Positions 8,137-59,501 of a DNA stretch of 64,000 nt are shown piece after piece. How positions within the stretch are numbered: position 1 is the stretch's first letter; every line of letters begins with the position of its first letter. Source of the stretch: Alphaproteobacteria bacterium (GTDB lineage: Bacteria > Pseudomonadota > Alphaproteobacteria > UBA2966). The translations under genes were made by a program, and so were the position numbers. Below the pieces are notes generated by a model. That model searched no databases. It was not told where the DNA came from and saw only the letters and a program-made list of their open reading frames with translations. The stretch lies in assembly GCA_021296255.1 (NCBI GenBank), contig JAGWAU010000005.1:158192-222191 (forward strand). Direction: 5' to 3'.

Positions 8137-9177
8137 ATGATGCAATCCGGTTCAAAACCAACTCTCGCGGCGGTGCGCCTGATCCTCTTGGTGCTGACCG
8201 GCCTCGTGCTGTCTGAACCGGTATCGGCTCAAGACAGTGAAGCGAGATCGTTGCGTGAGACGGTCGAACGCCTGCGCCAGGATATCGTGGATCTTCAACG
8301 TCAGGTGTACCGGGGTGAGGCCCCGGCAGCGCCTGGTCCGATTTCACCCCGGCAGGATCAGACGCAAGAAGGGGTGGGGATCGATGAACGGCGAGCCGCC
8401 GGCGCGCTGGTACGCGTGACCGCCCTTGAAGGCGAGCTTCGCGGCCTCACCGGCGAGATCGAAGAGATCAGGCACAAGGTCGATACGGCCGGCCGGCGAC
8501 TCGACAAGCTGGTCGAGGACGTTGATTTCCGACTGTCCGCCATCGAGCGCACCCTCGCCGAGGTGACGGCCATGGCGACCCAGGACGTAGCCCCGGCACA
8601 ATCCCGGACCGACACGCCGGCACCTGAGGCGGCCGGCTCAGGCGTGGTGCCCCAGGTTCCTGGTCCGTCAGGCCAGCCGGGCGTGCTGGGAACGATTCCC
8701 GTCGACCGGCTGCCCCCCCCAGGGAGCGCCGTGGAGACCGCATCCCCGACCCTGGCACGGCCCAAATCGCTGCTGCCGGAAGGGACTCCGGAAGAGCGTT
8801 ACGACTTTGCGCTGAGCCTGCTGCGGCTGCTCCGTTCCCAGGATCTCGTCAAGGCGGAACGGGCATTCGAGGAATTCCTGACAGCCCATGCCGATCACGA
8901 ACTCGCCGACAACGCCAGATACTGGCTTGCAGAATCCCATTACGTCCGCGAGGACTACAACCAAGCCGCCGCGGTCTTCGTGGAGAGCTACCAGACCTCT
9001 CCCACGGGCATCAAGGCTCCGGACAATCTGCTCAAGCTCGGCATGTCTCTGTCCCGCCTCGGTCGGGGTGATGAAGCTTGCGCAGCGTTCCAGGAACTCA
9101 ACGAGAAATTCCCGGATTCGGCTGACAGGATCAAGATGCGCAGCCAAAAGGAATGGCAAAAGGCCGGGTGCGAATAA
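8137..9177 (+). CDS. cpoB: Tol-Pal coordinator CpoB/YbgF
   Basis: 346 residues. A signal peptide ends near VSAQ. A coiled-coil segment follows (LRETVERLRQDIVDLQRQVY), then a Pro/Thr-rich linker. The C-terminal YbgF TPR region (about 215-345) reads RYDFALSLLRLL, FEEFLTAHADHELADNARYWLAESHY and FPDSADRIKMRSQKEW. It is the last gene of the tol-pal cluster and coordinates peptidoglycan synthesis with Tol function. It lies 198 bases after pal, beyond a hairpin, so it may have its own promoter. A second ATG is immediately adjacent to the first. Confidence 0.93.
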   Translation: MMQSGSKPTLAAVRLILLVLTGLVLSEPVSAQDSEARSLRETVERLRQDIVDLQRQVYRGEAPAAPGPISPRQDQTQEGVGIDERRAAGALVRVTALEGELRGLTGEIEEIRHKVDTAGRRLDKLVEDVDFRLSAIERTLAEVTAMATQDVAPAQSRTDTPAPEAAGSGVVPQVPGPSGQPGVLGTIPVDRLPPPGSAVETASPTLARPKSLLPEGTPEERYDFALSLLRLLRSQDLVKAERAFEEFLTAHADHELADNARYWLAESHYVREDYNQAAAVFVESYQTSPTGIKAPDNLLKLGMSLSRLGRGDEACAAFQELNEKFPDSADRIKMRSQKEWQKAGCE

Positions 9178-9192
9178 GGCGCCTCGATCGCC

Positions 9193-10554
9193 ATGAAGTA
9201 TGCTGACGACGAGCCCATCGGTGCACCCGAGTTCGAGGGACTGGTGCACTCGGTGGGGCCGTTCGCCTCGCCCCCCCGGGTGGCGGTGGCAACCTCCGGC
9301 GGCGTGGACAGCATCGCGCTATGCCTCCTGACTCATCGTTGGGCCTCGGCCCGCGGCGGCACATGCCGCGCCCTGGTTGTCGACCACGGCCTCCGTCCGG
9401 CGTCGGCCGGGGAATGCCATCGCGTCGTCGCGTGGTTGGCTCGCGGTGGGATCGAAGCGCACATCCTGGAATGGGCGGGGTGCAAGCCCATTCATGGAAT
9501 TCAGGAAGCGGCCCGCGAGGCACGCTATGAGCTCCTGTCGTCATGGTGCCGGGACCACGGGCTGCGCGATCTTCTGCTCGCCCACCATCGCGATGACCAG
9601 GCGGAAACGTTCCTCTTGAGACTTGGGTGCAAGAGCGGCTTGGACGGTCTCGCGGCCATGGCGGCGGTGTCGCGTCGAACCGACATTCGTGTGGTTCGCC
9701 CTCTGCTCGACATGCCAAAGGCGCGCCTCGTCGCTACCGTGAACGACCTTGGACATCCTTGGATCGAGGATCCGTCCAACAGGGATTCTAGGTTCGCTCG
9801 GTCGCGGATTCGCGGCCTCCTTCCGGCGTTGAATGCGGCCGGCGTTGCGGCACAGGGTATCGCCGTGTCGGCTCGTCGCCTGGGACGTGCCCGCGCCGCT
9901 CTCGAGCACTATGCATCGGAGCTGGTTCGGGATTGCGTGCAATCTCACGAAGCGGGATTCTGCTGGCTGGACCGGGACGCTCTGTTCGCGGCACCGGATG
10001 AGGTCGGGCTGCGCGTGCTATCGCGGGTCGTATCCGCCGTGGGGGCCCGTTCGGCGCCGCCCAGATATGACCGCTTGGAGCGGGCTTACACGGAAATCGC
10101 GAGCGGAAAGGCATCGAAAGGCCGTACCCTGGCGGGCTGTCGGATCATCGGTCGCACGGGGCGGCTGTTGATCTGCCGCGAGGCCCGTGGGGCGGGACAC
10201 TCCGTGACCCTTCACCCGGGCCAGAGCCGTCGCTGGGACGCGCGCTTTGACGTTCGGGTGGATGGCCACGCGCTTTCCGACCCCGAAAGGACCTGTGAGG
10301 TGCGTCGATTGGGTGTCGAGGGATGGCGAATTGTGATGGAGGATACTGAAACGCGCCTGCGAGCCCGTGATTCGGAGATTCCCGCCGCGGCGCACGCTAC
10401 GTTGCCGGCACTCTGGGATCACGTCGGGCTCGTCGACGTTCCGCACCTCGAATATCGTCGAAAAGGCTCCGGCCTGGCGCTTGACGCCAGATTCACTCCG
10501 GACCGGCCACTGGTATTTCCGCCGTTTTCAGGGAGCGTCCCTCTCTCCGGTTGA
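9193..10554 (+). CDS. tilS: tRNA(Ile)-lysidine synthase TilS
   Basis: 453 residues. TilS converts C34 of the CAU-anticodon tRNA-Ile to lysidine using ATP and lysine. The PP-loop SGGVDSIAL is near residue 35, and the second family motif (LLAHHRDDQAETFLLRLGCKSGL) is near 130-150. WIEDPSNRDSRFARSRIRGLLP is the family substrate-recognition segment. The C-terminal third is less conserved. In many Rhodospirillales-type genomes ftsH follows tilS closely; here about 14 kb of accessory DNA separates them. Confidence 0.95.
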   Translation: MKYADDEPIGAPEFEGLVHSVGPFASPPRVAVATSGGVDSIALCLLTHRWASARGGTCRALVVDHGLRPASAGECHRVVAWLARGGIEAHILEWAGCKPIHGIQEAAREARYELLSSWCRDHGLRDLLLAHHRDDQAETFLLRLGCKSGLDGLAAMAAVSRRTDIRVVRPLLDMPKARLVATVNDLGHPWIEDPSNRDSRFARSRIRGLLPALNAAGVAAQGIAVSARRLGRARAALEHYASELVRDCVQSHEAGFCWLDRDALFAAPDEVGLRVLSRVVSAVGARSAPPRYDRLERAYTEIASGKASKGRTLAGCRIIGRTGRLLICREARGAGHSVTLHPGQSRRWDARFDVRVDGHALSDPERTCEVRRLGVEGWRIVMEDTETRLRARDSEIPAAAHATLPALWDHVGLVDVPHLEYRRKGSGLALDARFTPDRPLVFPPFSGSVPLSG

Positions 10555-44380: not shown

Positions 44381-45778
44381 ATGAGTCCCGCAGCACTCGC
44401 TGAAACCGCCTACGATGCGCAATCTGGCGCAAGTCCCGCCCGGAGGATCGGCGTCATCGGCGCGGGCGCGTCGGGGCTGTGCGCGGCAAAACACCTGCTC
44501 GAGGTCGGCCTCGACGTCACGGTCTTCGAGATCGGCACCCAGGTCGGCGGTCTGTGGTGCTACATGAACGACAGCGGGCGCTCCTCCGCCTATCGTACGC
44601 TCCACATCAATACCGCCAAGAACGTGACCAATTTCAGCGATTTCCTCTTTGCCGAGGAAGTTCAGCGCTTTCCCAGCCACGAGGACATGTACGCCTACCT
44701 GAAGAGCTACGCGGAGCACTTCGGCGTGACGGAGCATATCCGCTTCAATTCCGAGGTCACCGAGCTGATCCCGCTGTTCGAACCCGGCAAGCAGGATCCG
44801 AAGTGGCGGATCACCACGGTCGACGGCGACGAGCATGTCTTCGACGCCGTTTGCGTCTGCACCGGCCACCTGACCAAGCCGGTGCACGTGCCGGAGTTCC
44901 GGAACGGCTTCACCGGCACGTACATGCATTCCCACGACTACAAGGAGCCCGAGTCGATGGTCGGCAAGCGGGTCTGCGTCGTCGGGATCGGCAATTCCGC
45001 GGTGGACGTCGCCAGCGACATCTGCGTCAACGCCAGGCGCTGCGTTCTGGTCGCCCGTTCCGGCGTCTGGATCGCCCCCAAGATGGTGTTCGGCGTGGCG
45101 TTCACGGACCTCACGGACTGGTTCATGAAACCCTGGATGCCCGCTTGGTTGCGCAAGAGGCTTCTCGTCTTTCTCATCTGGTGCGTCCACGGCAAGCCGG
45201 AACGACTGGGTCTGCCGCCGGTGATCGAACGGGTCCACGCCACGAGCAGCGGCACCGTCGTCAACGACATCGCCTACCGGCGCATCGAGGTGAAGCACGG
45301 CGTCGACCGCATCGAGGGCCGTAAAATTCGCTTCACGGACGGCACGTCGGACGAATTCGACATTCTCGTCGCCGCGACCGGTTATCTGATCGACCTGCCG
45401 TTCCTGTCCGAGGAAATCGTGCCGCGCGCCAACAACCGCATCCGGCTCTGGAAGCGGGTGATCCCGCCGGAATGGCCCGGTCTGTACTTCGTGGGCATGC
45501 TCAACGTGGTGTCCCACTCGAACCTCTGGGCCTACGAGCACCAAGTCCGCTGGCTGCGCGAATTCATCCTCGGCAACGCCGCGACGCCGTCGGTCGAGGA
45601 GATGAACCGCGACAACGACGCCAAGGACAGTTACATCGCCGAGGAGTTCAAGCGGACGATCCGCCACACCATCGAGGAGGAGCCGATCCGGTATTTCCCG
45701 GAGCTCAGGAAGGCCCTGAAGGCGGCCAAGCGCCGGGCTCGTCGCCGCGGCCGCGGGAGAGGCGCCAACGACGCCTGA
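44381..45778 (+). CDS. Flavin-containing monooxygenase
   Basis: 465 residues, a class B FAD/NADPH monooxygenase of the FMO or Baeyer-Villiger type. The FAD site is IGVIGAGASGLCAAKHLLEV near residue 25. The FMO fingerprint FTGTYMHSHDY near 180 (F-x-G-x3-H-x3-Y) is followed by the NADPH site VCVVGIGNSAVDVASDIC. The hinge motif FDILVAATGYLIDLPFL lies near 330. Such enzymes oxygenate N, S or keto groups of small substrates. It is 122 bases after mutY and precedes the regulator locus; the substrate is unknown. Confidence 0.92.
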   Translation: MSPAALAETAYDAQSGASPARRIGVIGAGASGLCAAKHLLEVGLDVTVFEIGTQVGGLWCYMNDSGRSSAYRTLHINTAKNVTNFSDFLFAEEVQRFPSHEDMYAYLKSYAEHFGVTEHIRFNSEVTELIPLFEPGKQDPKWRITTVDGDEHVFDAVCVCTGHLTKPVHVPEFRNGFTGTYMHSHDYKEPESMVGKRVCVVGIGNSAVDVASDICVNARRCVLVARSGVWIAPKMVFGVAFTDLTDWFMKPWMPAWLRKRLLVFLIWCVHGKPERLGLPPVIERVHATSSGTVVNDIAYRRIEVKHGVDRIEGRKIRFTDGTSDEFDILVAATGYLIDLPFLSEEIVPRANNRIRLWKRVIPPEWPGLYFVGMLNVVSHSNLWAYEHQVRWLREFILGNAATPSVEEMNRDNDAKDSYIAEEFKRTIRHTIEEEPIRYFPELRKALKAAKRRARRRGRGRGANDA

Positions 45779-46138
45779 TCACTTGCAGGCAAACTCTGCT
45801 CTCGACCAGCCGCTGCTACACCGCCGCCGGCGTCGCTGTCAGAGCCGCAGCCAGTATGAGCAGACCGAGGATTGCCGCAGGAATGTTCGAAACGCCCTCC
45901 CGAGATCGAGATGACATCGGCACGCCTCCCTCGGTTCGACCGTAAGGCAGGCGAAAGGCGATCAGGCTGATGCACGTTAGTGCGTCTCGGACAGTCGGGT
46001 CGGCAGCCGGGCGCGGGAAGGGATGGTTCGACGGGAAGAGCGCGGCCACATGAGGCCTTCGGTTCCGCTGCTCCCGGTGATTGTGGGACCCGCGACCTTG
46101 CCGTAGGTTAGGCGTGCCTGATCTCTCGGGAGGGCGAG
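45779..46138. other. Gene-poor stretch between the monooxygenase and the FNR-type gene
   Basis: 360 bases. A possible minus-strand small membrane protein is listed separately. No FNR box (TTGAT-N4-ATCAA) could be seen upstream of the regulator gene. Confidence 0.45.
45816..45917 (-). CDS. Possible 33-residue small membrane protein
   Basis: ATG at 45917 is preceded by GGGAGG at 8 bases. The 33-codon product starts MSSRSREGVSNIP and continues as one hydrophobic segment (AAILGLLILAAALTATP). A short basic head followed by a single helix is typical of bacterial small membrane proteins. It is only supported by the ribosome site and composition, and is too short to be assigned to a family. Confidence 0.45.
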   Translation of the reverse strand: MSSRSREGVSNIPAAILGLLILAAALTATPAAV

Positions 46139-46894
46139 GTGGCTGGCCAGCGAACGGCGGGAACGAAGCCCGGGGATTTCTGTGCGCAATGCGGGGTGCG
46201 CAACCAAGCCGTGTGCGCCCCGCTCGACATCGATGAACTGGCCGTCGTCGAGTCGTTCCGCAGCGGTGTGCGCGCTGTCCCGGCCGGCGCCGAGTTGTTC
46301 GCCCAGGGAGAGGTCAATACCCGGGTCTACACCCTCCTGGAGGGGTGGGCGATGCTCTACGAGACGCTTGAGGATGGACGACGGCAGATCATGGAGTTTT
46401 GCCTTCCCGGAGCCTTCCTGGGGTTTCAGATCGACCCCGAGAGGCCGATCGCCTACACGGCGCAGGCGATCAGCGACATTCGCGTCTGCACCTTTCCCCG
46501 CAAGGGGCTGGAAGAGTTGTTTCACGAGAAACCCGACATGTCCTTCCGCATGGCCTGTATCGCGACGCGCGAGCAGAACTTCGCCTTCCAGCATCTCACC
46601 AGCGTCGGCCGCCGGACCGCGCAGGAGCGCGTGGCCAATCTCCTGCTCGAACTGTTCCTGCGGATCCGGTTGACGTCGCCGGACGGGGCCGGGCATGCGA
46701 TCCGACTGCCCCTCACGCAGGAGCACATCGGAGACGCACTGGGTCTGACGTCGGTCCACGTCAACCGCACGCTTCGGGCGTTGCGCGAGGACGGCATCCT
46801 GACGGTCAGGGACGGCGTGTTGCGGATCATGGATGCGGACCGGCTTGTGGAAATCGCCGGTTACGATCCCAAGGTGCACGAACCCCGCACCTGA
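46139..46894 (+). CDS. FNR-type transcriptional regulator (Crp/Fnr family)
   Basis: 251 residues from a GTG after GGGAGGGCGAGG. Cysteines at 15, 18 and 26 (C-x2-C-x7-C) plus C117 (VCTFPRKG) match the four [4Fe-4S] ligands of alphaproteobacterial FnrN/FnrL, so oxygen sensing is likely. The cyclic-nucleotide-type beta-barrel is near residues 45-125, and the C-terminal helix-turn-helix reads HIGDALGLTSVHVNRTLRAL. It precedes the DUF1116-Rieske-UxaA genes and may control them, though no matching box was found. Confidence 0.88.
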   Translation: MAGQRTAGTKPGDFCAQCGVRNQAVCAPLDIDELAVVESFRSGVRAVPAGAELFAQGEVNTRVYTLLEGWAMLYETLEDGRRQIMEFCLPGAFLGFQIDPERPIAYTAQAISDIRVCTFPRKGLEELFHEKPDMSFRMACIATREQNFAFQHLTSVGRRTAQERVANLLLELFLRIRLTSPDGAGHAIRLPLTQEHIGDALGLTSVHVNRTLRALREDGILTVRDGVLRIMDADRLVEIAGYDPKVHEPRT

Positions 46895-46968
46895 CCGGTC
46901 GTCTCCGCGAAGCAAGACTTCGAAGGGAGTGCTTCCGAACGTCCTGCCGATCACGACGCCGAGGGCCC

Positions 46969-48222
46969 ATGGCCGACATCGATCGAACCGCCGCCAACCG
47001 GGAAGCCTTTGACCGTCTGTGTGCCGCCGACCCGGTGCTCGTGGATGTCCGGCCCGCAGGAGAGGTTCTCCCGGGAATGACCGCCGGCACCGTCCTCACG
47101 TCCGGACCTCCGATGGCCTGGGGAGACTACGTGGGCGGGCAACGGGATGCCGTGATCGGCGGCGCGCTCTTCGAAGGCCTCGCGGCGAGCCGCGAGGAGG
47201 CCGACGCCAAACTCGCCGGCGGCGAGATCCAGGTCGACGGCTGCCACGACCATGGCTGCGTCGGTTCGCTGGCCGGGATCTATACCGCCTCCATGCCCGT
47301 GTTCGTGGTGCAGAACCGCACTCACGGCAACGCCGGCTACTGCAACATGTACGAGGGCACCAACCCGCGGCGCCTCAACTACGGCGTCTACGACGAGGGC
47401 GTGCGCGAGCGTCTGCTGTTCGTGCAGGACGTGGTCGCGCCAGTGATCGCCGAGGCCGTCCGCACGAGCGGCGGCATACCGCTGAAGCCGCTGATGCGGC
47501 GCGGGCTTCACATGGGCGATGAGCTGCACAGCCGGAACACCGCCACCTCGCTGCTCTTCACCCGCGAGCTCTTTCCCTACCTGCTGCGCATGGACTCCGC
47601 GGACAGGGAGGCCGTGGAGCGGACGGTGCAGGCGCTTACGGAGGATCATTATTTCTTCCTCCGCCTCTCCATGGCCGCCGCCAAGTGCACCGCCGATGCC
47701 GCCGCCGGCGTCGACGGCGCCAGCGTCGTGACCGCCATGGCCTTCAACTGCCGGAACTTCGCCATCCGTGTGAGCGGGCTCGGCAACGCCTGGTTTGCCG
47801 GGCCCCACGCCACCGTCCGGGCGAAGCTGTTCGACGGACACACGGAGGACGAGATCGCGTGGATGGGAGGCGAGAGCCCGATCGCCGAGACCGTCGGGCT
47901 CGGCGGCTTCGCCCAGGCCGCGGCCTTTCCCTTGCAGCGGTACCAGGGAGGCTCAGCCGAGGCGATGGTCGAACGGAACCTCGAGATGTACGAGATCACC
48001 GTCGGCGAGAACCCGGACTATCACATCCCCTATCTCGGCTATCGCGGCACGCCTACCGGAATCGATATCGTGCGCGTCGTCGAGACGAGAATCCTGCCGG
48101 CTATGGACATCGGCATCGCGGGGCGCGACGGCGGCCAGATCGGCGCCGGCGTCGTCCGAGCGCCGATCGAATGCTTCGAAGCCGCCCTCGCCGCATACCG
48201 CGGCCGCTACGGCGGCACGTAA
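46969..48222 (+). CDS. DUF1116 family protein (YlbE/AllG-like)
   Basis: 417 residues from ATG at 46969; the much longer frame upstream is a shadow of the regulator gene. DUF1116 signatures are TAGTVLTSGPPMAWGDYVGG, VDGCHDHGCVGSLAGIYTAS, HGNAGYCNMYEGTNPRRLNY, LMRRGLHMGDELHSRNTATS and GGESPIAETVGLGGFAQAAA. The best-known member, E. coli YlbE (AllG), forms oxamate carbamoyltransferase with AllF (FdrA) and AllH. No AllF- or AllH-like gene is next to this one, so it may act alone or with other partners. Confidence 0.85.
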   Translation: MADIDRTAANREAFDRLCAADPVLVDVRPAGEVLPGMTAGTVLTSGPPMAWGDYVGGQRDAVIGGALFEGLAASREEADAKLAGGEIQVDGCHDHGCVGSLAGIYTASMPVFVVQNRTHGNAGYCNMYEGTNPRRLNYGVYDEGVRERLLFVQDVVAPVIAEAVRTSGGIPLKPLMRRGLHMGDELHSRNTATSLLFTRELFPYLLRMDSADREAVERTVQALTEDHYFFLRLSMAAAKCTADAAAGVDGASVVTAMAFNCRNFAIRVSGLGNAWFAGPHATVRAKLFDGHTEDEIAWMGGESPIAETVGLGGFAQAAAFPLQRYQGGSAEAMVERNLEMYEITVGENPDYHIPYLGYRGTPTGIDIVRVVETRILPAMDIGIAGRDGGQIGAGVVRAPIECFEAALAAYRGRYGGT

Positions 48223-48239
48223 GCGCTGCCCTCGGAACC

Positions 48240-48350
48240 AATCCGAACACACTCCCGCCCGCCCCTCCCCCGCAAGGGGAAGGGAGCAAAGGGGTGGATT
48301 CGGAGACGTCGCCGGGCCGCCCTCCGGCGGTTCCAGCCGAACTGGAACCG
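48240..48350. repeat. Palindromic intergenic elements
   Basis: Two hairpin-forming segments lie between the DUF1116 and Rieske genes. One is a C-rich/G-rich arm pair around 48261-48288 (CCCCTCCCCCGC ... AAGGGGAAGGG). The second is a perfect 9-bp stem CGGTTCCAG/CTGGAACCG with loop CCGAA at 48328-48350. They resemble dispersed palindromic repeats of alphaproteobacteria, and could also be transcript processing sites. Confidence 0.4.
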
Positions 48351-48487
48351 CACTAGGCATGACCCTTGTCGATCCGATATCATTTTCCTTGGGACTGTCG
48401 CGGCGACCCTCGGGGGCCGAAGGTCCGACCCGGCTTTGCGAAATCGTTGCACTCGCGTTCCATCGGTCATCTGGGAGAGAAATCGAC

Positions 48488-49903
48488 ATGAGCAAGGACA
48501 GGCCCGTCCACATTCCTTACGGCGCCTACTACAAAACAGAGATACCGGCGCACGATCCGGAACTTACCCACACGGGTCCCGGCACGCCGATGGGTGAGCT
48601 CATGCGCAAGCACTGGCAGCCGGTCTGCATGTCGGAACAGCTCACCGACGTTCCGCTCGCCATCCGCATCATGAGCGAGGACCTCGTCGCCTTCCGCGAC
48701 CGCTCGGGCCGCGTCGGCGTCCTGCAGCGCCACTGCAGCCACCGCGGCACGTCGCTCGAGTACGGCATCATCCAGCCCAAGGGCATCCGCTGCTGCTACC
48801 ACGGCTGGGTCTACGACATCGACGGCACCATCCTCGAGATGCCGGCGGAGCCCGAGGACAGCAGGATCTACGAGACCGTCTATCACGGGGCCTATCCGGC
48901 GTTCGAGCGCGACGGGCTGGTGTTCGCCTACATGGGGCCGCCCGAGGAGAAGCCGGAATTCCCCGACTACGACACCTATCACCGGCCCGACGGCAACAAG
49001 CTTCTGCCCATGTCGATCTTCAGCCCCTGCAACTGGCTGCAGGTCTGCGAGAACATCATGGACCACCTCCACGTCGGCACCCTGCACAACCCGCAGATGA
49101 TGACGGTCGAGGGCGTGAACGCCTCCGAGATCGAAGGCATGGACTACGCGGCGCCCATGGGCTTCACCGAGCGGCCGGCGCTCGATTGGGAACCGACCCG
49201 CGGCGGAAACGGCATGTGCTTCATCGCCAGCCGGCGCAATCCCGACCAGCGGACGGTGTGGGTCCGCATCGTCGAAACCATCTTTCCGAATTACCTGCAG
49301 ATCGGCTGCACGTTTCCTTCGGCGCGGACGTCGCGGCGTTCGCAAACCGTGTGGACGCGCTGGCACGTTCCCGTCGACGACGAGAACATGCTGGTCCTCG
49401 GCTGGCGCCACTTCAACGACGAAGTCGACCCGCTCCGCCTCGGAAAGGAAGAGGAGGTCGGATACGAAAAGCTCGACTTTCTCGGCGGCGTCGTGGGCAA
49501 TCGCACTTACGAGGAAGGCCAGCGCGCGCCCGGCGACTACGAGGCGCTGATCGGCCAGCGCGCCATCGCCATCCACGATTACGAGAACCCGGGTTCCGCT
49601 GACGCCGGGGTTTACATGTGCCGCAAACTCCTGCGCGAATGCGTCCGCGGGAACACGCCGCCGCACGAATCGCTGGAGATCAACGGGAGCGGGAGGAACA
49701 GGCTCCACACTTACACCCAGGATTCCGTGATGAACGTGCCTTCCGAGCCGGGCAAGGACGATCTGGAGTTGATGCGTCGCGTGGGCCAGCAGGTCTTCGT
49801 GATCATGCAGGAAGGCGACGACGTCCCCAGCGCCAACCGCGAGGAGCACATCCGCGCTCGCTTCGACGACTTGGACGGTGGCTATCTCGAGGCGGCGGAA
49901 TAG
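48488..49903 (+). CDS. Rieske non-haem iron oxygenase, alpha subunit
   Basis: 471 residues from ATG at 48488. The [2Fe-2S] Rieske site is C-S-H ... C-Y-H (LQRHCSHRGTSLEYG, then RCCYHGWVYD) near residues 85-110. The mononuclear iron site is ENIMDHLHVGTLH near 195-207, with H-x4-H after the Asp. The catalytic domain is of the phthalate dioxygenase/LigX-like type. It hydroxylates or demethylates an aromatic or other ring, with electrons from a reductase not encoded next to it; the Rieske ferredoxin at 59.16 kb is a possible distant partner. It lies 265 bases after the DUF1116 gene. Confidence 0.93.
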   Translation: MSKDRPVHIPYGAYYKTEIPAHDPELTHTGPGTPMGELMRKHWQPVCMSEQLTDVPLAIRIMSEDLVAFRDRSGRVGVLQRHCSHRGTSLEYGIIQPKGIRCCYHGWVYDIDGTILEMPAEPEDSRIYETVYHGAYPAFERDGLVFAYMGPPEEKPEFPDYDTYHRPDGNKLLPMSIFSPCNWLQVCENIMDHLHVGTLHNPQMMTVEGVNASEIEGMDYAAPMGFTERPALDWEPTRGGNGMCFIASRRNPDQRTVWVRIVETIFPNYLQIGCTFPSARTSRRSQTVWTRWHVPVDDENMLVLGWRHFNDEVDPLRLGKEEEVGYEKLDFLGGVVGNRTYEEGQRAPGDYEALIGQRAIAIHDYENPGSADAGVYMCRKLLRECVRGNTPPHESLEINGSGRNRLHTYTQDSVMNVPSEPGKDDLELMRRVGQQVFVIMQEGDDVPSANREEHIRARFDDLDGGYLEAAE

Positions 49904-50030
49904 GAGACGCGCGCCTGACCGGGGTCATGTTGGAGGGTGACGCTTGCCGCGGCATGGAGCGGCAGGAATCCGTCGCGCGGCGTTTCAAGGACGCCCAGGC
50001 GGGACTCGCCGTCTAGTCCGAGCCAGAATC

Positions 50031-51374
50031 GTGCAACGCGACGACCGCGGCCTGGAACTGACGACGTCGAGCGCCAGCGCCGCCGAGGCGTTGAGCCGCG
50101 CGGCCGCGAGTCTCGTCAGTCACAGGTTGGACACCATGGCTCACGTGAACGCGGCGCTGGAGGCAGACCCCGGCTGCGTGCTGGCGCGCGTCATGAAGGG
50201 CCTGCTCGTCGTCGGCGTCCGACTGCCGCATCGCTATCCGGAAGCGCAAGCCGAATTGGATGCCGCGGAAGCGGCGAGCGGCGGCGCCAACGAGCGGGAA
50301 AAGGGCTACCTGGCGGCGCTCTCGGCCTTGATCCGCGGCCGCACCCTGGATGCGGTCAGCCATTACGAGATGATCCTGGCAGCTAATCCTCGCGACCTGC
50401 TGGCCCATCGCCTGGCCCAGTTCGAGTTGTTCTGGATCGGCGAGTCCGTGTGGATGCGCAATATCGTCGAGCGCGGCGCACCGACCTGGTCCGCCGACGT
50501 GCCCGGTTTCAGCGCGTTTCAGGCGATGCGCGCCTTCGGCTGCGAGGAGAACGGCCTCTACGCCGACGCCGAACGGTACGGGCGTGACGCGGTGGAGCGC
50601 GACCCCACGAACGGCTGGGGCGCGCACGCGGTCGCCCATGTCATGGAGATGCAGGGACGCCACGAGGACGGCATCGCCTGGCTCGATGGCCTCAAGGACC
50701 ATTGGGCGGAACTCAACAACTTCGTGCATCACTTGTGGTGGCACCGCAGCCTGTTCCACCTGCTGCGGGGTGAGTTCGGCACGGTCCTGGAGATCTACGA
50801 CCGCGACATCCGCAATCCCGAGGCACCGCTGATCAAGGCCAATCCCGGTCATTACGGCGATTTTCAGAATGCCGTCGACCTGTTGAAGCATCTCGACATG
50901 TACGGGTACGACATCGGCGACCGTTGGGAGGCGGTAGCCGATCTCGCCGAAGATCGTATCGGCAACCATGCCGCGCCGCTCTCCAGTGCCCATGTCGCGA
51001 CCGCCTTGGCGGCGGCCGGCCGCGACGCGGCCCTGGAAGCCTACCTGACGGCTCTGCGGGGCTACGCGTCCATGGACGAGACCAACAACGCGGCCCGCGT
51101 TCGCTCGGCGGTCCTGCCGGCGGCGGAGGGAGCCATCGCGCACCAGCGCGGCGACCATGAAGCGGTGCTGGGAAACCTGCTGCCGGCGCGGCACAGCCTG
51201 TGGCAGATCGGCGGCAGCCACGCCCAGCGCAATCTGTTTACGCAGATCCTGGCCGATTCGGCGCAGCGCTTGGGGCGAGAGCACGTCGTCGATATGCTGC
51301 TGGAAGAGATGGCCCAAACCGGGTTCGCGCATCCCGCGGAGCGTCTTCGCCCTCCGGGCGCGAGGATGCATTGA
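50031..51374 (+). CDS. TTC38-like tetratricopeptide repeat protein
   Basis: About 447 residues from GTG at 50031 (the region upstream is not conserved-looking). The protein is a helical TPR array. It contains GWGAHAVAHVMEMQGRHEDG, NNFVHHLWWHRSLFHLLRGE and VLEIYDRDI, the pattern of the TTC38 family. HAVAH and HHLWWH place five His residues in two clusters, unusual for a pure scaffold and possibly a metal site. The family function is unknown. It follows the Rieske gene by 127 bases. Confidence 0.75.
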   Translation: MQRDDRGLELTTSSASAAEALSRAAASLVSHRLDTMAHVNAALEADPGCVLARVMKGLLVVGVRLPHRYPEAQAELDAAEAASGGANEREKGYLAALSALIRGRTLDAVSHYEMILAANPRDLLAHRLAQFELFWIGESVWMRNIVERGAPTWSADVPGFSAFQAMRAFGCEENGLYADAERYGRDAVERDPTNGWGAHAVAHVMEMQGRHEDGIAWLDGLKDHWAELNNFVHHLWWHRSLFHLLRGEFGTVLEIYDRDIRNPEAPLIKANPGHYGDFQNAVDLLKHLDMYGYDIGDRWEAVADLAEDRIGNHAAPLSSAHVATALAAAGRDAALEAYLTALRGYASMDETNNAARVRSAVLPAAEGAIAHQRGDHEAVLGNLLPARHSLWQIGGSHAQRNLFTQILADSAQRLGREHVVDMLLEEMAQTGFAHPAERLRPPGARMH

Positions 51375-51417
51375 GGACCCGCCTTACCGGGCTCACGACG
51401 ATCGCGAGGAGCGGACC

Positions 51418-51561
51418 ATGACCGTCGACCGTGAACTGGAGGTTCGGGACAAGCCCGCCGGGATTCTGCGCCGGCCGGTGGGGGAGCCTCGGGCCTGGAC
51501 GCGGGACAGTCTCGACCATGGCGCCCTCGACGCCGCGGAATCCGGAGCGTCGGTCGCGTGA
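51418..51561 (+). CDS. 47-residue ORF, possibly a truncated oxygenase start
   Basis: ATG at 51418 follows GAGGAGCGG. The product ends ...GALDAAESGASVA at a TGA that overlaps the next gene's GTG start (GTGA). The segment PAGILRRPVGEPRAWTRDSL resembles the N-terminus of TauD/TfdA-type dioxygenases, but nothing else of that fold follows. It could be a gene remnant or a leader that couples translation. Confidence 0.35.
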   Translation: MTVDRELEVRDKPAGILRRPVGEPRAWTRDSLDHGALDAAESGASVA

Positions 51562-51839
51562 CCTCTGCCAGCGCCGCGATCGACGCCATCGCCGTCGACA
51601 CGAGCGACAACGTCGCGACCTGTCTTCACGCCGTCGAGGCCGGCGCGGATGTCTCGGTCAAGTCGGGGCCGGACGTCATCACCGTGACGGCCGCCGACGC
51701 CATCCCGCGCGGCCACAAGATCGCGCTCGAGGAGATCGCCCGCGGCGATGCCGTCCGCAAGTACGGCGAGGTCATCGGCAAGGCGTCCACCGCGATCGCA
51801 CCGGGCCAACACGTCCACACCCACAACCTCGTCGACTAG
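51558..51839 (+). CDS. UxaA-type lyase small (SAF) subunit
   Basis: 93 residues from a GTG, matching the SAF domain of the altronate/galactarate dehydratase and sulfolactate sulfo-lyase (SuyA) small subunits: DNVATCLHAVEAGADVSV, ITVTAADAIPRGHKIALEEI, ARGDAVRKYGEVIGKASTAI, APGQHVHTHNLVD. The large subunit is encoded 60 bases downstream. The pair forms an iron-dependent hydro- or sulfo-lyase for a sugar acid or similar hydroxy acid; the exact substrate is not determined. Confidence 0.85.
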   Translation: MTSASAAIDAIAVDTSDNVATCLHAVEAGADVSVKSGPDVITVTAADAIPRGHKIALEEIARGDAVRKYGEVIGKASTAIAPGQHVHTHNLVD

Positions 51840-51899
51840 GCTGGTGAGAGCGATGGTTCCATTCGTTGCGGAACGAACGGCGCGGGAGGCGTGAGCCCC

Positions 51900-53057
51900 A
51901 TGTTCCATGGTTATCCGCGCAGCGACGGGTCCGCCGGCATCCGGAACACCGTCGGCGTCATCGCGCTGATGGACAACGTCAACGGCATCGCCCGCAAGAT
52001 CGCCGGGAACGTCCGCGGCACCGAGCTCGTCACCGACCTCTTCGGCCGCAAGCTGATCGGGCTCAACCACGAAATGCGCCTCAAGGCGATCCGCGGCATG
52101 GCCACGAACCCGAATCTCGGCGGCGTGATCCTGGTGACGCTCCACGGTGTCTCCGCCGAGACGTTCGCCGAGCCCATCGCCGCGGCGGGCAAGGACGTGG
52201 AGTGTGTCGTCTATCAGGACATCGGCGGCACGCTCCGCACCATCGAACAGGGCACGCTGATCGCCGCGAAGATGGCCAAGAAGGTGTCCGGCGTGCAGCG
52301 CAGCGAGCAGCCGCTCTCCAGGCTCGTCATGGGGGTCGAGTGCGGCGGCTCCGACTTCTCGAGCGGCATCGCCGGGAATCCCGCCCTCGGCCACGCCGCG
52401 GACCTGCTCATGGAAGCCGGCGGCTCGGTCGTGCTGTCGGAGACCGCCGAGATCATGGGGGCCGAACACCTCATGGCCGAGCGTGCCGTCGACGACAAGA
52501 CGGCTTCCGGCATCGTCGACGCCATCGCCGAGATGGAGGAGCTGGCCCGCCGGGCGGGTGTCCCCGACATCCGCCGCGGCAATCCTTCGGCCGACAACAT
52601 CAAGGGCGGCCTGACGACGCTCGCGGAAAAGTCCCTCGGCGCGGTCAAGAAAGGCGGCAGCAAACCCCTCCAGGGCGTCGTGGGGTACTGCGACCCGGTC
52701 ATCCCCGATCCGCCCGGTTTTTATTTCATGAGCACGCCGTCGCCGGCCTGCGAGTCGATGACGGGCCTGGCGGCCGGCGGGGCCCAGATCATCGGGTTCA
52801 ACACCGGCCTCGGGCAGCCCTCGGCGCATCCGTTCGTCCCCACGGTCAAGATCAGCGGCAACCCGGCGACCGCCGGGACCGCGCCGGACGACCTGGACGT
52901 CTCGGTGAGCGGCATCCTGACCGGAGAGATCTCGATCGAGGAAGGCGGCCGGCGCATCTACGAGGAAATCCTCGCCGTCGCCAACGGCAAGGCCACCTAC
53001 ACGGAACTTTTCGGTACCGGACAATCCACCATCGGCATCGCCGGCGCGAGCTTTTAG
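51900..53057 (+). CDS. UxaA-family hydro-lyase large subunit
   Basis: 385 residues. ATG at 51900 is chosen because GGGAGG lies 10 bases upstream; the GTG at 51891 is too close to that site. The family opening is FHGYPRSDGSAGIRNTVGVI. It continues with VECGGSDFSSGIAGNPALGH, a conserved Cys-Gly-Gly-Ser-Asp signature, then GNPSADNIKGGLTTLAEKSL, MTGLAAGGAQIIGFNTGLGQ and PTVKISGN. It belongs with altronate dehydratase and SuyB. Without sugar-acid or sulfonate genes alongside, specificity cannot be assigned. Confidence 0.9.
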   Translation: MFHGYPRSDGSAGIRNTVGVIALMDNVNGIARKIAGNVRGTELVTDLFGRKLIGLNHEMRLKAIRGMATNPNLGGVILVTLHGVSAETFAEPIAAAGKDVECVVYQDIGGTLRTIEQGTLIAAKMAKKVSGVQRSEQPLSRLVMGVECGGSDFSSGIAGNPALGHAADLLMEAGGSVVLSETAEIMGAEHLMAERAVDDKTASGIVDAIAEMEELARRAGVPDIRRGNPSADNIKGGLTTLAEKSLGAVKKGGSKPLQGVVGYCDPVIPDPPGFYFMSTPSPACESMTGLAAGGAQIIGFNTGLGQPSAHPFVPTVKISGNPATAGTAPDDLDVSVSGILTGEISIEEGGRRIYEEILAVANGKATYTELFGTGQSTIGIAGASF

Positions 53058-53903: not shown

Positions 53904-54248
53904 GATCCGCGCTCCAGCGTTCGGCTATCGCAAAGTTCGATTCAAAACTCTTTTATATCAACAGGTTAAGGGAGATCAACGATCGCTCGGGTCGGCTCAC
54001 GTCCGGACCCGCGAGACCCGCCCGGCGTTCGCCGTGAGGCGGCCGGTCCCGACGAGGTTGGGGTAGGCCCCTTGGGCAGATAGGTGCGGCAACAGAGGAT
54101 CGGTGACCCGACGGAATCTTGCCCAAAGCGCGGCTACGCGGCTACACATACTGAAGAACCGCGATACAATCACCATGATCGGACTCGAGTCTCGAAATTT
54201 GCCTATCCTATGTATCGTGACGAAGGGTCTTTGACCGGAGGACATGCT
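53904..54248. other. Divergent intergenic region
   Basis: 345 bases between the minus-strand SDR and the plus-strand oxygenase start. It has an AT-rich patch at 53937-53965 (TTTTATATCAAC) that may hold the SDR promoter. No gene is seen. Confidence 0.4.
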
Positions 54249-55526
54249 TTGAAACCGCACGAAACCATCGAGGATCACGTTGCCACGGATGAGGAGGCAT
54301 GTTCGTCGGTCTATGTGCCGCCTCTCCAACTCACGGAAGGACGGCCCCCGCCCATCGCAGCGAATGGCGGATTGTCTTACATGTCATTCGATCGGGACGG
54401 AGATGCGGGAACAGGCGCGGCGATCGAAGCGGCGCTCGACCAGATTGCCGAAGGGCATGCGAAAGCGTTTATCGATTGGATCGAAAGCGCCCCCCAGGGA
54501 CCCATCGAGACCAAGTGGGGCCTTGGATTCCGTGAGTATGAGGACTGCCTCGACTATATTCTGGCGAACAAGATCGAAGCCCCTGAAGGCGGCCTGGCGC
54601 TTCCGCTGCGCTACACTGTCTACGAGCGACCGTCCTACTCCATCGTGTCGTCCAACTCGCTCTGGCAGGATCCGGCGCGCGAGGCCGAGGCGAAGCTGTT
54701 GGGCGAGGCCGAAGAGTACAACCGGAGTCGCAGCCTCTACTTCCCGCAGGTGGTGCGCGATGGGCGGCGCATCGGAGAGTACTATCCCGGCCTATCGGTC
54801 GACAGCCCCGAATGTATGGACAAGCTTGGCGTCTCCCTGGCCCACCTCGAGTCCAGTTGCAGGAACTTCTACGATTCGGCGGAGGTGGAACGTGTGTTCT
54901 ACCCGGAGATCGAGAAGCTCCTTCTGGAGTTTTTCCCGGATGCCACCGATGCGCTCGTCTACAACCACGACGTCTTCGACAAGGATTATCAGGGCGACCG
55001 CACGGAAGACCAGGACGCCAAAAACCCGGGCGTGAACGCCAGCTACGTCAACCTCGTGCACAACGACCTGAACGACAACAGCGGCCGCGTGCGCTGCCGC
55101 GAGCTGCTGACGATGAATCTGCGGAACTTCGGGCGCGAGCAGCATTACACGGAGGCGGAGGCCGAAGCGAAGATGTCGCGGCGCTTCATGTCGCTCAACC
55201 TCGCCAAGCCGATGGAGACCGTGGGTCAGTTCCCCTTCGTGCTGTGCGCCTGGCCCTCTTTCGCCGACCAGCCCTACATCACGAACTATCGCATCTACGA
55301 CGACCGCGTCGGTGAGACCACTCGCTTCACCTACCGCCCCGATCACGAGTGGTACTGGTTTCCCCGGCAGAAGCCGACCGAGGTCTCGATGCTCAAGTGC
55401 TACGACTCCGTCACCGATGGCTCCGTATCGCGCTGGTCCTTCCACACGGCTTGCATCGACCCGACCGCGCCCGCCGACGCGCCCTGCCGCAAGAACGTCG
55501 TGGTCCGCTCCTACGTCTTCTTCTGA
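54249..55526 (+). CDS. CmcJ/NvfI-like non-haem iron oxygenase
   Basis: About 425 residues from a TTG with GGAGG 9 bases upstream; the open frame continues 55 codons further but without signals. The C-terminal half fits the CmcJ/NvfI/GA4-desaturase group of Fe(II)/2-oxoglutarate-type enzymes. It shows NASYVNLVHNDLNDNSGRVR (possible H-x-D ligands), PFVLCAWPSFADQPYI, HEWYWFPRQKPTEVSMLKCY, DSVTDGSVSRWSFHTACIDP and VRSYVFF. The N-terminal ~150 residues are less recognisable. In characterised members the reactions are hydroxylation or desaturation in secondary metabolism. It stands alone between the SDR and the TRAP genes. Confidence 0.7.
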   Translation: MKPHETIEDHVATDEEACSSVYVPPLQLTEGRPPPIAANGGLSYMSFDRDGDAGTGAAIEAALDQIAEGHAKAFIDWIESAPQGPIETKWGLGFREYEDCLDYILANKIEAPEGGLALPLRYTVYERPSYSIVSSNSLWQDPAREAEAKLLGEAEEYNRSRSLYFPQVVRDGRRIGEYYPGLSVDSPECMDKLGVSLAHLESSCRNFYDSAEVERVFYPEIEKLLLEFFPDATDALVYNHDVFDKDYQGDRTEDQDAKNPGVNASYVNLVHNDLNDNSGRVRCRELLTMNLRNFGREQHYTEAEAEAKMSRRFMSLNLAKPMETVGQFPFVLCAWPSFADQPYITNYRIYDDRVGETTRFTYRPDHEWYWFPRQKPTEVSMLKCYDSVTDGSVSRWSFHTACIDPTAPADAPCRKNVVVRSYVFF

Positions 55527-56084: not shown

Positions 56085-57389
56085 TTACGCGATCCCCAGG
56101 ACCAGCCTCGGCAGGATGAGCGAGAGTTCAGGGATGAATGTGACGATGAGTACCATCGGAAGGTGGCCGAACGTCAGGAGCTTTATGGTCGGCATGAAGT
56201 ACTTGTCCAGCGTGAGCTTGCTCACTCCCGCCGCCATGTAGAGCATCGGTGCACAGGGCGGGGAGACGTTCCCAAGACCCAGATTGGTGCCGACGATGGC
56301 CGCGAAATGGATCGGGTGCACGCCGATCTCCGTTGCCACCGGCAACAGGACGATTGCCGCAAGGACGCTGCCCGAAACGTCATCCACGATCATCCCGATC
56401 AACAGCAGGATCACGTTGATGATGAGCAGCGCGAGGATCCGGTTCTCGGTCAACGCGACCAGCGCGTCGGCCACCTCCTTGGGGACCTGCTGGAGAATCA
56501 TCGCGCGACTCATCACGAACAGGAAGAACAGCACGGCGACGATCGATCCGGTGGTAATCGCCGCGCGGGCGATGGTCGAGGGGAAGTTTCTGAACGTGAG
56601 CCCGCGATAGATCAGGAACCCGATGGCAAGCGCGAAGACCAGCGCAATGGCGGCGGCCTCGGTCGGCGTGGCAATGCCGGAGTAGATGGTCCCGAGGATG
56701 ATGACCGGCATCAGCAGCGCCCAGAAGGCTTCCTTGCCGGTTCGGCCGACCCGCCTCACCGCCTGCGGCAGGGAAATCCGCTCTTCGACGGTGATCGTGT
56801 CGACCTTTCTCAGGAACAGGAAGTTAAGGCCGACATAAACGAGGGTCAGGATGGCGCCCGGGATAACGGTCGACAGGAACGCCGCACCTACGGAGATCCC
56901 CCCGGTCACCGCGAAGACGATCATCGGGATCGAGGGCGGGATCATCAGCGCGAGGACCGACGAACAGGCGACCAGCGCGGTGGCGTGGCCGGCCGGGTAT
57001 CCTTCCTTGATCATGCGCGGGATCATGATCTGGCCGATCGCCGCGATGGCGGCCGACGACGAGCCGGAGATCGCCCCGAACAGCGCGCAGGTCACCACCG
57101 TCACCGCTCCGAGCCCGCCCTTGAGCCGGCCGATGAAGGCGTTGACGAAGGCGAGAAGGCGGTCCGAGATCCCGCCCTGTGCCATCAGCGTCCCGGCCAT
57201 GACGAACAGGGGCAAGGCGAGCAGGGCGAAGCTCGAGGTGGTCTGGTAGGCGTAGGGGATGAGGAATGACACGTCCGATCCCGACCAGACGCCGAAGACC
57301 AGCGCGCCTATCCCGAAGGCGAAGGCGATCGGCATCTCTGCGAGCAACAGTAGGACGATGAGCGCGAGGGAGATCACGAAGGCCAGCAT
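56085..57389 (-). CDS. dctM: TRAP transporter large permease, DctM type (second system)
   Basis: 434 residues from ATG at 57389, overlapping nothing but separated from dctQ by only 2 bases. It has multiple membrane helices, LLALPLFVMAGTLMAQGGIS, GGLGAVTVVTCALFGAISGS, AALVACSSVLALMIPPSIPM-type segments (TALVACSSVLALMIPP) and GLGNVSPPCAPMLYMAAGVS. It is the ion-coupled large subunit of a second DctPQM system, distinct from that at 20.4-23.4 kb. Confidence 0.95.
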   Translation of the reverse strand: MLAFVISLALIVLLLLAEMPIAFAFGIGALVFGVWSGSDVSFLIPYAYQTTSSFALLALPLFVMAGTLMAQGGISDRLLAFVNAFIGRLKGGLGAVTVVTCALFGAISGSSSAAIAAIGQIMIPRMIKEGYPAGHATALVACSSVLALMIPPSIPMIVFAVTGGISVGAAFLSTVIPGAILTLVYVGLNFLFLRKVDTITVEERISLPQAVRRVGRTGKEAFWALLMPVIILGTIYSGIATPTEAAAIALVFALAIGFLIYRGLTFRNFPSTIARAAITTGSIVAVLFFLFVMSRAMILQQVPKEVADALVALTENRILALLIINVILLLIGMIVDDVSGSVLAAIVLLPVATEIGVHPIHFAAIVGTNLGLGNVSPPCAPMLYMAAGVSKLTLDKYFMPTIKLLTFGHLPMVLIVTFIPELSLILPRLVLGIA

Positions 57390-57391
57390 GG

Positions 57392-58036
57392 CTATTCCCC
57401 CGTCTCCTCGCGCAGGTGGATGACGAGGTCGACCGCTTGGTTTACAGCCTGGAGCACCATGTACAACGCGGTGCCGATGAAGCCGATGATGAGGGACGCC
57501 GACCACCAGCCCTTGGGCCAGCGCATGTAGGAGCTGAGCCGGCCGGTCTGGATCTCGAACAGGGCGTAGTTGATAGCGAAGTAACCGAACAGCACGCAGG
57601 CTGCGATGCCGAGCATGGTCATGGCGAGCCGGACCGCGCGTATCGCGTTCCGGTTCGCCACCACCATGGTCAGGATGCCGCCATGTATGTGCTCGCCGTT
57701 ACGCGTCACATAGGCGATGCCGAGGAAGTAGAACCAAGCGCCGAACAGGAGCGAGAGCTCCTCGATGCCGACGAAGGGCGATGCGAAGACGTATCGGAGC
57801 ACCACCTGGGTGAACATCAGGGCAGCGAGACAGAGCCCGAACGCGATGATCAAGACGTAAAATATCCGCTCGAAAACCGCTTCGATGGCGATCAGCGGCC
57901 GCAGTCTCTCCGCCAGCGCGCCCTCCGGGATCGCTGTCAGATGCGGCGGCGGCTCCGGGGATGTGAGCTCAGGATCGTAGATAAAGGAGTCCGCGCTGAC
58001 TGGCGGGCGCGGGTGCTGTTCCGATTTCCTGTCCAT
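57392..58036 (-). CDS. dctQ: TRAP transporter small permease, DctQ type (second system)
   Basis: 214 residues. An N-terminal extension of about 45 residues rich in Pro and Glu (PELTSPEPPPHLTAIPEG) precedes the four helices: IFYVLIIAFGLCLAALMFTQ, LSLLFGAWFYFLGIAYVTRN, RLAMTMLGIAACVLFGYFAI and SLIIGFIGTALYMVLQAV. It works with the DctM protein encoded next to it. The gap to the DctP gene (77 bases) contains two strong palindromes. Confidence 0.93.
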   Translation of the reverse strand: MDRKSEQHPRPPVSADSFIYDPELTSPEPPPHLTAIPEGALAERLRPLIAIEAVFERIFYVLIIAFGLCLAALMFTQVVLRYVFASPFVGIEELSLLFGAWFYFLGIAYVTRNGEHIHGGILTMVVANRNAIRAVRLAMTMLGIAACVLFGYFAINYALFEIQTGRLSSYMRWPKGWWSASLIIGFIGTALYMVLQAVNQAVDLVIHLREETGE

Positions 58037-58058
58037 CTCCGCGCCTCGTGCTCAATGG

Positions 58059-58107
58059 ACCGCCCGGGCGCCTCGGCGCCCGGGCGGTTTGCCGGGACGC
58101 GTCCCGG
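58059..58107 (-). promoter_or_regulatory. Twin perfect palindromes between dctP and dctQ
   Basis: Arms at 58059-58072 and 58075-58088 are perfectly complementary over 14 bp (ACCGCCCGGGCGCC with GGCGCCCGGGCGGT). A second 16-base perfect palindrome CCGGGACGCGTCCCGG follows at 58092-58107. On the minus strand they lie just after the dctP stop. TRAP operons are known to carry a stem-loop here that favours the binding-protein message; this pair fits that role, or a partial terminator. Confidence 0.6.
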
Positions 58108-58113
58108 TTCACA

Positions 58114-59127
58114 CTACTTGACGCCGACGATCTTCCGGATCTTGTCCATTGTCGCCTTGCCGACGACGGACTCCATCTTCGGCCACTCCTTGTCGTAGAC
58201 GATCTGCTTGGCGGCGCTCATCTGCGCGTCGTTCAGTTCGACGACCTTAATGCCGGCGTCGCGCGCCTTTTGCAGGAACTCGTTGCTCTTGCGCTCCGCC
58301 TCCTCCCAGGACCAGGCGATGGTCTTGTCGGCCGCGGCCTGCAACGCGGAGCGCACGTCGGCCGGGAGCCCGTCCCACCACTTCTTGTTGACCAGCCAGA
58401 AGGCGACCTCGAAATAGTCGTTGGTGAGGATGTTTGCCTCCAGCACGTCGCGCAGCGTGTAGGTCTCGACCGCGGTCGAAAACGAACGCGCATCCACGGT
58501 GCCGAGCTGTAGGGCGGTATGAACCTCGGAGAGCGGAATCGGAACCGCCGCGAAGCCCAAGCTGTTGAAACGGTCGACGGCGATCGAAAGCCCTGGCACC
58601 CGGATCTTCATGCCCTTGGGATCACCGGGATAGTTGAGGGGCAACTTGCCGACGCCCTTGCGGATCACTACCGAGCCGAAATCGGTCGGGATGATGCCGA
58701 CGGCATGCAGGCCGAGATCGCCCAGCATGTCATTGTAGACCCCGAGCATGCCGGCGCCTGGGCCGTATAGCTTCTTCGCGTCTTTCCAGTCGGACACGAT
58801 GTAGCCCAGATAGATGAGGTCTAGGCGCTTGTCGAAGTCGGACGACGCCCAGGTCAGGGTCATCGGAACGACGCCCTGCATCGATTGCTCGAACAATGAT
58901 GTCCAGTCGCCCAGATCGCCGCCCGGGTGATAGGCGATCGAGATCTTCTTGTTGCCCTTCAACTGCGACAAGAAGCGTTGCGAGAGCGCGTGGAACACGT
59001 GATCGGTGTTCATGGCGTGGGCGAAGATGAACTTCTCCTTCGCCTGTGCCGGCATCGCCGCTCCGGCCGCCGCAATAGCCGCGACGGCCAGACCGAGGAT
59101 TAGCCATTTTCTCAGCGGGTTTTGCAT
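58114..59127 (-). CDS. dctP: TRAP transporter substrate-binding protein, DctP type (second system)
   Basis: 337 residues from ATG at 59127 with AAGGAGA upstream; the longer frame is a shadow. It has a Sec signal peptide (LILGLAVAAIAAAGAAMPAQA). DctP features are KFIFAHAMNTDHVFHALSQR, IAYHPGGDLGDWTSLFEQSM, MKIRVPGLSIAVDRFNSLGF (with the ligand Arg in KIRVPG) and WEEAERKSNEFLQKARDAG. The ligand is unknown. It follows the Rieske ferredoxin gene by 29 bases and is likely in the same operon. Confidence 0.94.
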   Translation of the reverse strand: MQNPLRKWLILGLAVAAIAAAGAAMPAQAKEKFIFAHAMNTDHVFHALSQRFLSQLKGNKKISIAYHPGGDLGDWTSLFEQSMQGVVPMTLTWASSDFDKRLDLIYLGYIVSDWKDAKKLYGPGAGMLGVYNDMLGDLGLHAVGIIPTDFGSVVIRKGVGKLPLNYPGDPKGMKIRVPGLSIAVDRFNSLGFAAVPIPLSEVHTALQLGTVDARSFSTAVETYTLRDVLEANILTNDYFEVAFWLVNKKWWDGLPADVRSALQAAADKTIAWSWEEAERKSNEFLQKARDAGIKVVELNDAQMSAAKQIVYDKEWPKMESVVGKATMDKIRKIVGVK

Positions 59128-59156
59128 AGTTGTCTCCTTGTTTAAGACACACGAAT

Positions 59157-59501
59157 TCAGGGCGATTCCCAGTTCTCCTCTTCCTTGCGGTAACCGACCT
59201 GCACATAGACCTGTCCGTTCTCCGTCTTGACCGGGTAGGTGTTGAGTTCCTCGTAGGGCGGCGGCGAGACCACCTTGCCGGAGCGGATGTCGAAGCGGCC
59301 CTGGTGCAGCGGGCACTCGATGACGTGCCCCGTGAGCAGCCCTTGCTCGAGATGCGTCGCCTTGTGGGTGCACATGCCGTCGGTGCAATAGAATCCGTCC
59401 TCGGCGTTGTAGATCGCGTAGGTTCGGCCCCCGTGGTCCCAGCGGATGAGGTCCTCTTCGTCGATCTCGTCACAGGCGCAGGCGTGAATCCAATCGGCCA
59501 T
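59157..59501 (-). CDS. Rieske-type [2Fe-2S] ferredoxin
   Basis: 114 residues from ATG at 59501. The cluster motif is C-T-H ... C-P-L-H (GMCTHKATHLEQGLL, then ECPLHQGRFD) near residues 44-66. The ending SPPPYEELNTYPVKTENGQ is typical of ferredoxins of ring-hydroxylating and membrane hydroxylase systems. It lies 10 bases after the PanB-like gene. The three-gene run of desaturase, PanB-like and ferredoxin suggests it donates electrons to the membrane oxygenase encoded just upstream. Confidence 0.92.
   Translation of the reverse strand: MADWIHACACDEIDEEDLIRWDHGGRTYAIYNAEDGFYCTDGMCTHKATHLEQGLLTGHVIECPLHQGRFDIRSGKVVSPPPYEELNTYPVKTENGQVYVQVGYRKEEENWESP

Follow-up and report, generated by a model that had tools for sequence, protein, structure and literature searches.

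Which role can a protein of the DUF1116 family play when the two partners of its characterised relative are missing, and is this role connected to the oxygenase gene that stands beside it? The question is raised by a stretch of 64,000 nucleotides from an Alphaproteobacteria bacterium (hereafter, the window), where genes for a Crp/Fnr-family regulator, a DUF1116 protein, a Rieske oxygenase, a tetratricopeptide repeat (TPR)-like protein and a UxaA-type lyase follow one another on the same strand. The analysis described here suggests, at a confidence that stands midway between doubt and acceptance, that the DUF1116 gene represents a distinct branch within the AllG family, called AllG2, which works without AllF and AllH as a free-standing enzyme in the catabolism of organic amines or other nitrogen compounds.

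Oxamate carbamoyltransferase (OXTCase) interconverts oxalurate plus phosphate with oxamate plus carbamoyl phosphate, and to our knowledge DUF1116 has one characterised member, which is functional only with two other proteins. This member is AllG (YlbE) of the E. coli AllFGH enzyme, for which all three genes are required (PMC11326118). AllG2 belongs to the same Pfam family as AllG (PF06545), but differs from it in its position on the tree, in a set of fixed residues and in the lack of both partners. In the genome that carries the window (4.25 Mb, 97%-complete assembly), AllH (PF11392) gave no match, the E. coli control being positive, and AllF was not found: canonical AllF finds its best match in a SucD-type protein (30%), and the five Ligase_CoA (PF00549) matches resemble SucCD-type genes. 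A normal AllFGH complex encoded elsewhere in the genome is rejected on these grounds; the initial annotation, which had reported AllF and AllH as absent and had proposed to abandon its reading should they be found elsewhere, is borne out genome-wide on this point, although it overlooked a second, distant DUF1116 paralogue on contig C87. As an aside, the gene beside SucD at the expected place of SucC (L011, G000:C39, 5091-6284) consists of two adjacent frames of 116 and 278 amino acids, reflecting either a frameshift or an assembly error.

Relatives of the window protein came from public bacterial genomes, scanned with an alignment of close relatives (78 loci), and from class-wide matches; the neighbourhoods of 83 AllG2 genes were compared. 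The tree unites all 72 non-redundant AllG2 sequences in one clade on a long stem (SH-aLRT 100); E. coli AllG and ten AllG proteins linked to AllF stand outside it. Within this clade the window protein is sister to that of Defluviicoccus (support 97), with which it shares 82% identity. A glutamine-synthetase-like (GS-like) gene lies within 5 kb of AllG2 at 69/83 loci, while a chance estimate drawn from the seven GS-like matches in this genome gives such a neighbour to about 2% of genes. AllF, AllH or carbamate kinase is found near none of the 83; canonical AllG loci, in contrast, carry AllF (10/10), AllH (7/10) and carbamate kinase (6/10), and never GS (0/10). The adjacency of DUF1116 and Rieske genes singled out by the initial annotation does recur in the neighbourhood search, at 19 of the 83 loci, 15 of them with the Rieske gene within 5 kb. 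Since linkage to GS requires about 3 changes on the tree and linkage to Rieske genes about 8, GS is probably the old partner of AllG2, and the Rieske gene a recurrent later one.

The nature of these partners points to amine metabolism. The alphaproteobacterial GS-like partners tested score above the TIGR03105 cut-off, for one of them a comparison with solved structures placed the glutamate-methylamine ligase 9QUR nearest, and of the 48 partners with a readable motif a single one carries YEAP, as true glutamine synthetase does; amine-using ligases have typically lost the YEAP glutamate. Further common neighbours of AllG2 are amino-acid (APC) permeases, GntR regulators, short-chain dehydrogenases (SDRs), peptidase C26, glutaminase, alpha/beta hydrolases and flavin monooxygenases (FMOs), among which the permeases, the peptidase and glutaminase are typical of gamma-glutamylation amine pathways. 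At one locus (L053, G007:C432), AllG2 stands at a contig end adjoining N-methylglutamate-synthase-type genes and a GMAS-like ligase, which links it to methylamine-type metabolism. Clusters of AllG2 with an adjoining GS-like gene are also present in cultivable strains such as Gordonia namibiensis NBRC 108229 and Rhodococcus koreensis DSM 44498.

The fold of the family is preserved in AllG2, while a number of its residues are not. The AlphaFold model of the window protein (pLDDT 95.1) superposes on the uncharacterised DUF1116 protein 3CLQ from Enterococcus faecalis V583 with a TM of 0.95, an rmsd of 1.4 and 38% identity, and a Foldseek search of the PDB revealed no DUF1116 fold relative beyond 3CLQ. 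The residues G183, D184, H187 and R189 are kept in all three DUF1116 groups, namely AllG2, canonical AllG and the distant AllG3 discussed below, and 55 near-invariant positions are common to AllG2 and canonical AllG. These two groups are nevertheless separated by 16 fixed residue differences, at 7 of which (T44, G57, S100, N137, R232, C261 and E302) AllG3 has the residue of canonical AllG; the simplest reading of the alignment is that the active site of AllG2 may have changed.

From these observations, we infer that AllG2 acts as a free-standing enzyme on a C-N bond and that the amine it frees is captured by the ligase. An oxygenase (Rieske, FMO or PhyH, depending on the lineage) would first oxidise an organic nitrogen compound; AllG2, as a soluble enzyme, would handle the C-N bond (of an amide, ureide or acyl-amine) during the breakdown of this compound; and the ligase, where its gene is present, would capture the freed amine as a gamma-glutamyl amide. 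In the window organism and in Defluviicoccus, where no ligase gene lies nearby, the amine would be used otherwise. A broader version, in which AllG2 constitutes a stand-alone DUF1116 subfamily that performs an undescribed C-N bond step in the oxidative catabolism of amines or N-heterocycles and is accompanied in Actinomycetota, Pseudomonadota and Chloroflexota by ligases that form gamma-glutamyl amides, is advanced more tentatively, as a proposal that may well have to be given up.

To what extent the genes around AllG2 in this genome belong together is addressed by comparison with two congeners, G385 and G386. The features concerned are the following, in window coordinates.

44381..45778, + strand: flavin monooxygenase-like (FMO) protein (PF00743, E=6e-69), a resident gene to the left of the insert
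45781..48431, no strand: 2.65-kb stretch holding the FNR-like gene and AllG2, missing at the equivalent site of congener G385
46139..46894, + strand: Crp/Fnr-family regulator with FnrL-type cysteine spacing (C15, C18, C26, C117) and the recognition helix SVHVNR
46969..48222, + strand: DUF1116/AllG-family protein of the AllG2 clade (PF06545, E=4e-76; assigned by tree; fold of 3CLQ)
48223..48487, + strand: 265-bp non-coding gap between AllG2 and the Rieske gene, with a weak sigma-70-like site at 48354-48383
48488..49903, + strand: Rieske oxygenase alpha subunit (PF00355 plus a weak LigXa_C match), a resident gene
about 50031..51374, + strand: TPR-like protein (sub-threshold TPR matches only), found alongside the Rieske gene throughout the genus
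51558..51839, + strand: SAF-domain small subunit of a UxaA-type lyase (PF08666)
51891..53057, + strand: UxaA/galactarate-dehydratase-type large subunit (GD_AH; PF20629/PF04295), whose closest solved structure is 6U7L

Profile matches and open reading frames thus place all the genes named by the initial annotation on the + strand, and the DUF1116 protein is a member of its family (255.7 bits against a PF06545 gathering threshold of 27); the "TTC38-like" label given to the TPR protein finds no confirmation in its weak, sub-threshold matches. The 265-bp gap, with its weak sigma-70-like site, indicates that the AllG2 and Rieske genes are not tightly coupled. Directly before the SAF gene, a possible reading frame of 47 amino acids (51419-51561, +) may, by the impression its sequence gives, be a truncated oxygenase start, and shortly downstream of the UxaA pair lie genes for a CmcJ/NvfI-family oxidoreductase (54084-55526, +) and a TRAP transporter (DctM, DctQ, DctP; 56085-59388, -).

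In G385, the genes for MutY, FMO, the Rieske protein (88% at the protein level) and the TPR protein (85%) appear in the order of the window, and the ends of the alignment lie 122 bp apart as against 2652 bp in the window, where the FNR-like gene and AllG2 sit (window 45780 and 48432 correspond to 9765 and 9887 of the G385 locus, L166). The FMO gene is collinear with MutY in both congeners. In G386, the same gap is occupied by two unrelated genes on the opposite strand, downstream of which are found extra Rieske genes, a PhyH-like gene and a UxaA gene (91% to that of the window) that stands beside the Rieske block; G385 has no UxaA orthologue at the locus, and only a 44% relative elsewhere. The Rieske orthologues of the two congeners show 87-88% identity, and the TPR-like orthologues adjoining them 85% and 76%. 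An AllG2-type DUF1116 gene was not found in G385, in G386 or in the four other family genomes searched, the single DUF1116 match in each congener being of the C87 (AllG3) type, and no match to the regulator reaches E<=1e-20 in either congener, two other family genomes holding relatives of only 33-35%. Terminal direct repeats of at least 9 bp were not found at the insert ends, and GC content fails to mark the insert (65-69% vs 64%). Given the empty G385 site and the failure to find AllG2 or the regulator in either congener, the two genes were most likely acquired together, as a single insert. The locus as a whole is of mosaic composition, with the Rieske-TPR pair as its resident core and UxaA common only with G386; FNR, Rieske, DUF1116 and UxaA do not form a conserved unit. 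Lack of conservation of the locus, which the initial annotation had named in advance as an outcome that would speak against it, is what the comparison revealed, the FNR-like and DUF1116 genes being missing from both congeners and UxaA being unlinked in G385.

Several of these observations weigh against a free-standing enzyme of amine catabolism. The window locus and its closest kin have no GS-like neighbour, the closest GS-like protein in the genome reaching 39%, and many AllG2 loci are arranged divergently rather than as an operon. In addition, the GS-like partner tested from the Actinobacteria (L117) is divergent and fails TIGR03105, so that ligase substrates may differ between lineages. The insert itself could instead reflect losses in the two congeners, but a gain is favoured by the empty site, the affinity to Defluviicoccus and the lack of AllG2 in four further genomes of the family. 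Finally, gene linkage is not chemistry, and does not by itself define a substrate, a product or catalytic residues.

The alternative that survives best, although we consider it unlikely, is that AllG2 is a chance passenger in this genome, a recent arrival whose role is not tied to the neighbouring oxygenase genes. It is consistent with the insertion site, whose content is different in all three genus members, and with the abundance of Rieske genes. Matches to the window Rieske protein number 33 in this genome and 18 and 40 in G385 and G386, some of them fragments, in genomes of about 4 Mb, with 0-2 in each of the four other family genomes searched; examples of this LigXa-type expansion here are C32:141991, C44:69132, C53:13415 and C87:13617. 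By a rough estimate, one gene in ten of this genome would have a Rieske gene within 5 kb by chance, and in a genus so rich in Rieske genes such a neighbour is weak evidence. A chance arrival fits less well with an intact frame that has kept its key residues and its 82% identity to Defluviicoccus, and with the fact that a Rieske gene immediately adjoins AllG2 in the nearest relatives as well: the window and Defluviicoccus form a small clade without a GS neighbour, and Defluviicoccus AllG2 mostly adjoins a VanA-type Rieske gene. In this genome, a functional connection of AllG2 with the neighbouring Rieske-TPR-UxaA genes is possible but unproven. Among the Rieske genes of the genus, it is of note that one G386 contig (L183, G386:C29:1-14000) carries them in tandem, at 53-64% identity to that of the window, and that three overlapping or adjacent Rieske pieces of this genome (L185, G000:C77:9000-18704, at about 6841-9467; 50%, 83% and 51% to the window copy) are either a degraded array or an assembly artefact.

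The pairing of AllG2 with GS-like genes lends itself to another explanation, in which the two proteins form a two-part enzyme, the ligase making an acyl phosphate and AllG2 moving the acyl group to a poor nucleophile, as AllFGH does with carbamoyl phosphate and oxamate. The frequency of the pairing (69/83) mirrors that of AllG with AllF (10/10), and the dependence of AllFGH on three genes offers a precedent (PMC11326118), but GS is missing from the window and Defluviicoccus group and GS-type ligases act alone elsewhere, which makes such an arrangement rather improbable.

Slightly less probable still is an oxygen-regulated operon, in which the FNR-type protein would control a pathway where a single compound is processed step by step by the Rieske, DUF1116 and UxaA enzymes. 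All the genes lie on one strand, DUF1116 and Rieske genes are again neighbours in other lineages, among them the nearest relatives, and the four cluster-ligand cysteines of FNR and FnrL are present in the regulator at positions 15, 18, 26 and 117, as the initial annotation had stated, with further cysteines at 88 and 140. However, C15 is not present in the closest homologue of the regulator, its score against the FnrL equivalog is 137.9 bits for a cut-off of 300, and its recognition helix, SVHVNR, is not of the FNR type, for which the motif is E..SR. FNR-type DNA sites have the form TTGAT-N4-ATCAA; a search with TTGAY-N4-RTCAA, allowing up to 1 mismatch, revealed no such site within the locus and a total in the sequence searched no higher than chance. 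FNR control of the locus is thus unsupported. The operon is further made less likely by the 265-bp gap ahead of the Rieske gene, by the absence of FNR homologues at the AllG2 loci gathered at the time of the search, and by the congeners, where the FNR-like gene and AllG2 are missing (at the G385 site and from G386) while Rieske-TPR is retained, and UxaA occurs only in G386, so that the FNR-linked functional locus put forward initially is not supported.

That AllG2 is still a subunit of an oxamate or other carbamoyltransferase, recruiting unrelated partners encoded elsewhere, is highly improbable, since its DUF1116 fold (3CLQ) and its 55 positions common with canonical AllG are set against the lack of AllH and AllF in the genome, the lack of AllF, AllH or carbamate kinase at all 83 loci, and the 16 switched residues.

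The distant AllG3 group, which comprises the C87 copy of this genome as well as genes in G213 and G303, offers a parallel. In G213, the AllG3 gene and a LigXa-type Rieske gene share an overlap of 10 nt and belong to a run that also includes genes for an aldehyde dehydrogenase, an amidase, a formamidase-family protein and a reductase, together with N-methylglutamate-synthase-type and GMAS-type genes, which shows that DUF1116 without AllF and AllH recurs next to oxygenases and glutamate-amine ligases. The loci of the group (L008, at G000:C87:11500-31000, and L179, L180, L148 and L149) include those of the genus, where AllG3 is accompanied by genes for an ABC transporter, for amidases and for two small proteins that are paralogues of each other, and where Rieske genes are found close by. 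The G213 neighbourhood resembles the homarine catabolic pathway (Ferrer-Gonzalez et al. 2026, doi 10.1038/s41564-026-02313-7, as cited in PMC13390433), which is a lead only; homarine was not adopted as the substrate of a window pathway, the likeness concerning the distant AllG3 locus and not AllG2.

Among known systems, the AllG2 loci also have counterparts in the gamma-glutamylation amine pathways (glutamate-methylamine ligase, the GlnA3/GlnA4-type ligases of Streptomyces, and PuuABCD), with which they share a GS-like ligase, APC permease, C26 peptidase, glutaminase and FMO; these pathways differ in that no DUF1116 protein turned up for them in the literature search, and the window locus has no ligase. 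Among the papers mentioning DUF1116 that the search covered, subscription papers lying outside its coverage, none was found to tie the family to amine ligases, and while the DUF1116 family is known, the AllG2 branch and its ligase partner appear to be undescribed. A large clade that lacks both partners and mostly adjoins a GS-like ligase provides a concrete handle on the role of the DUF1116 fold, and implies that the label "oxamate carbamoyltransferase subunit AllG" is very likely mistaken for many gene clusters of mycobacteria, rhodococci and soil bacteria.

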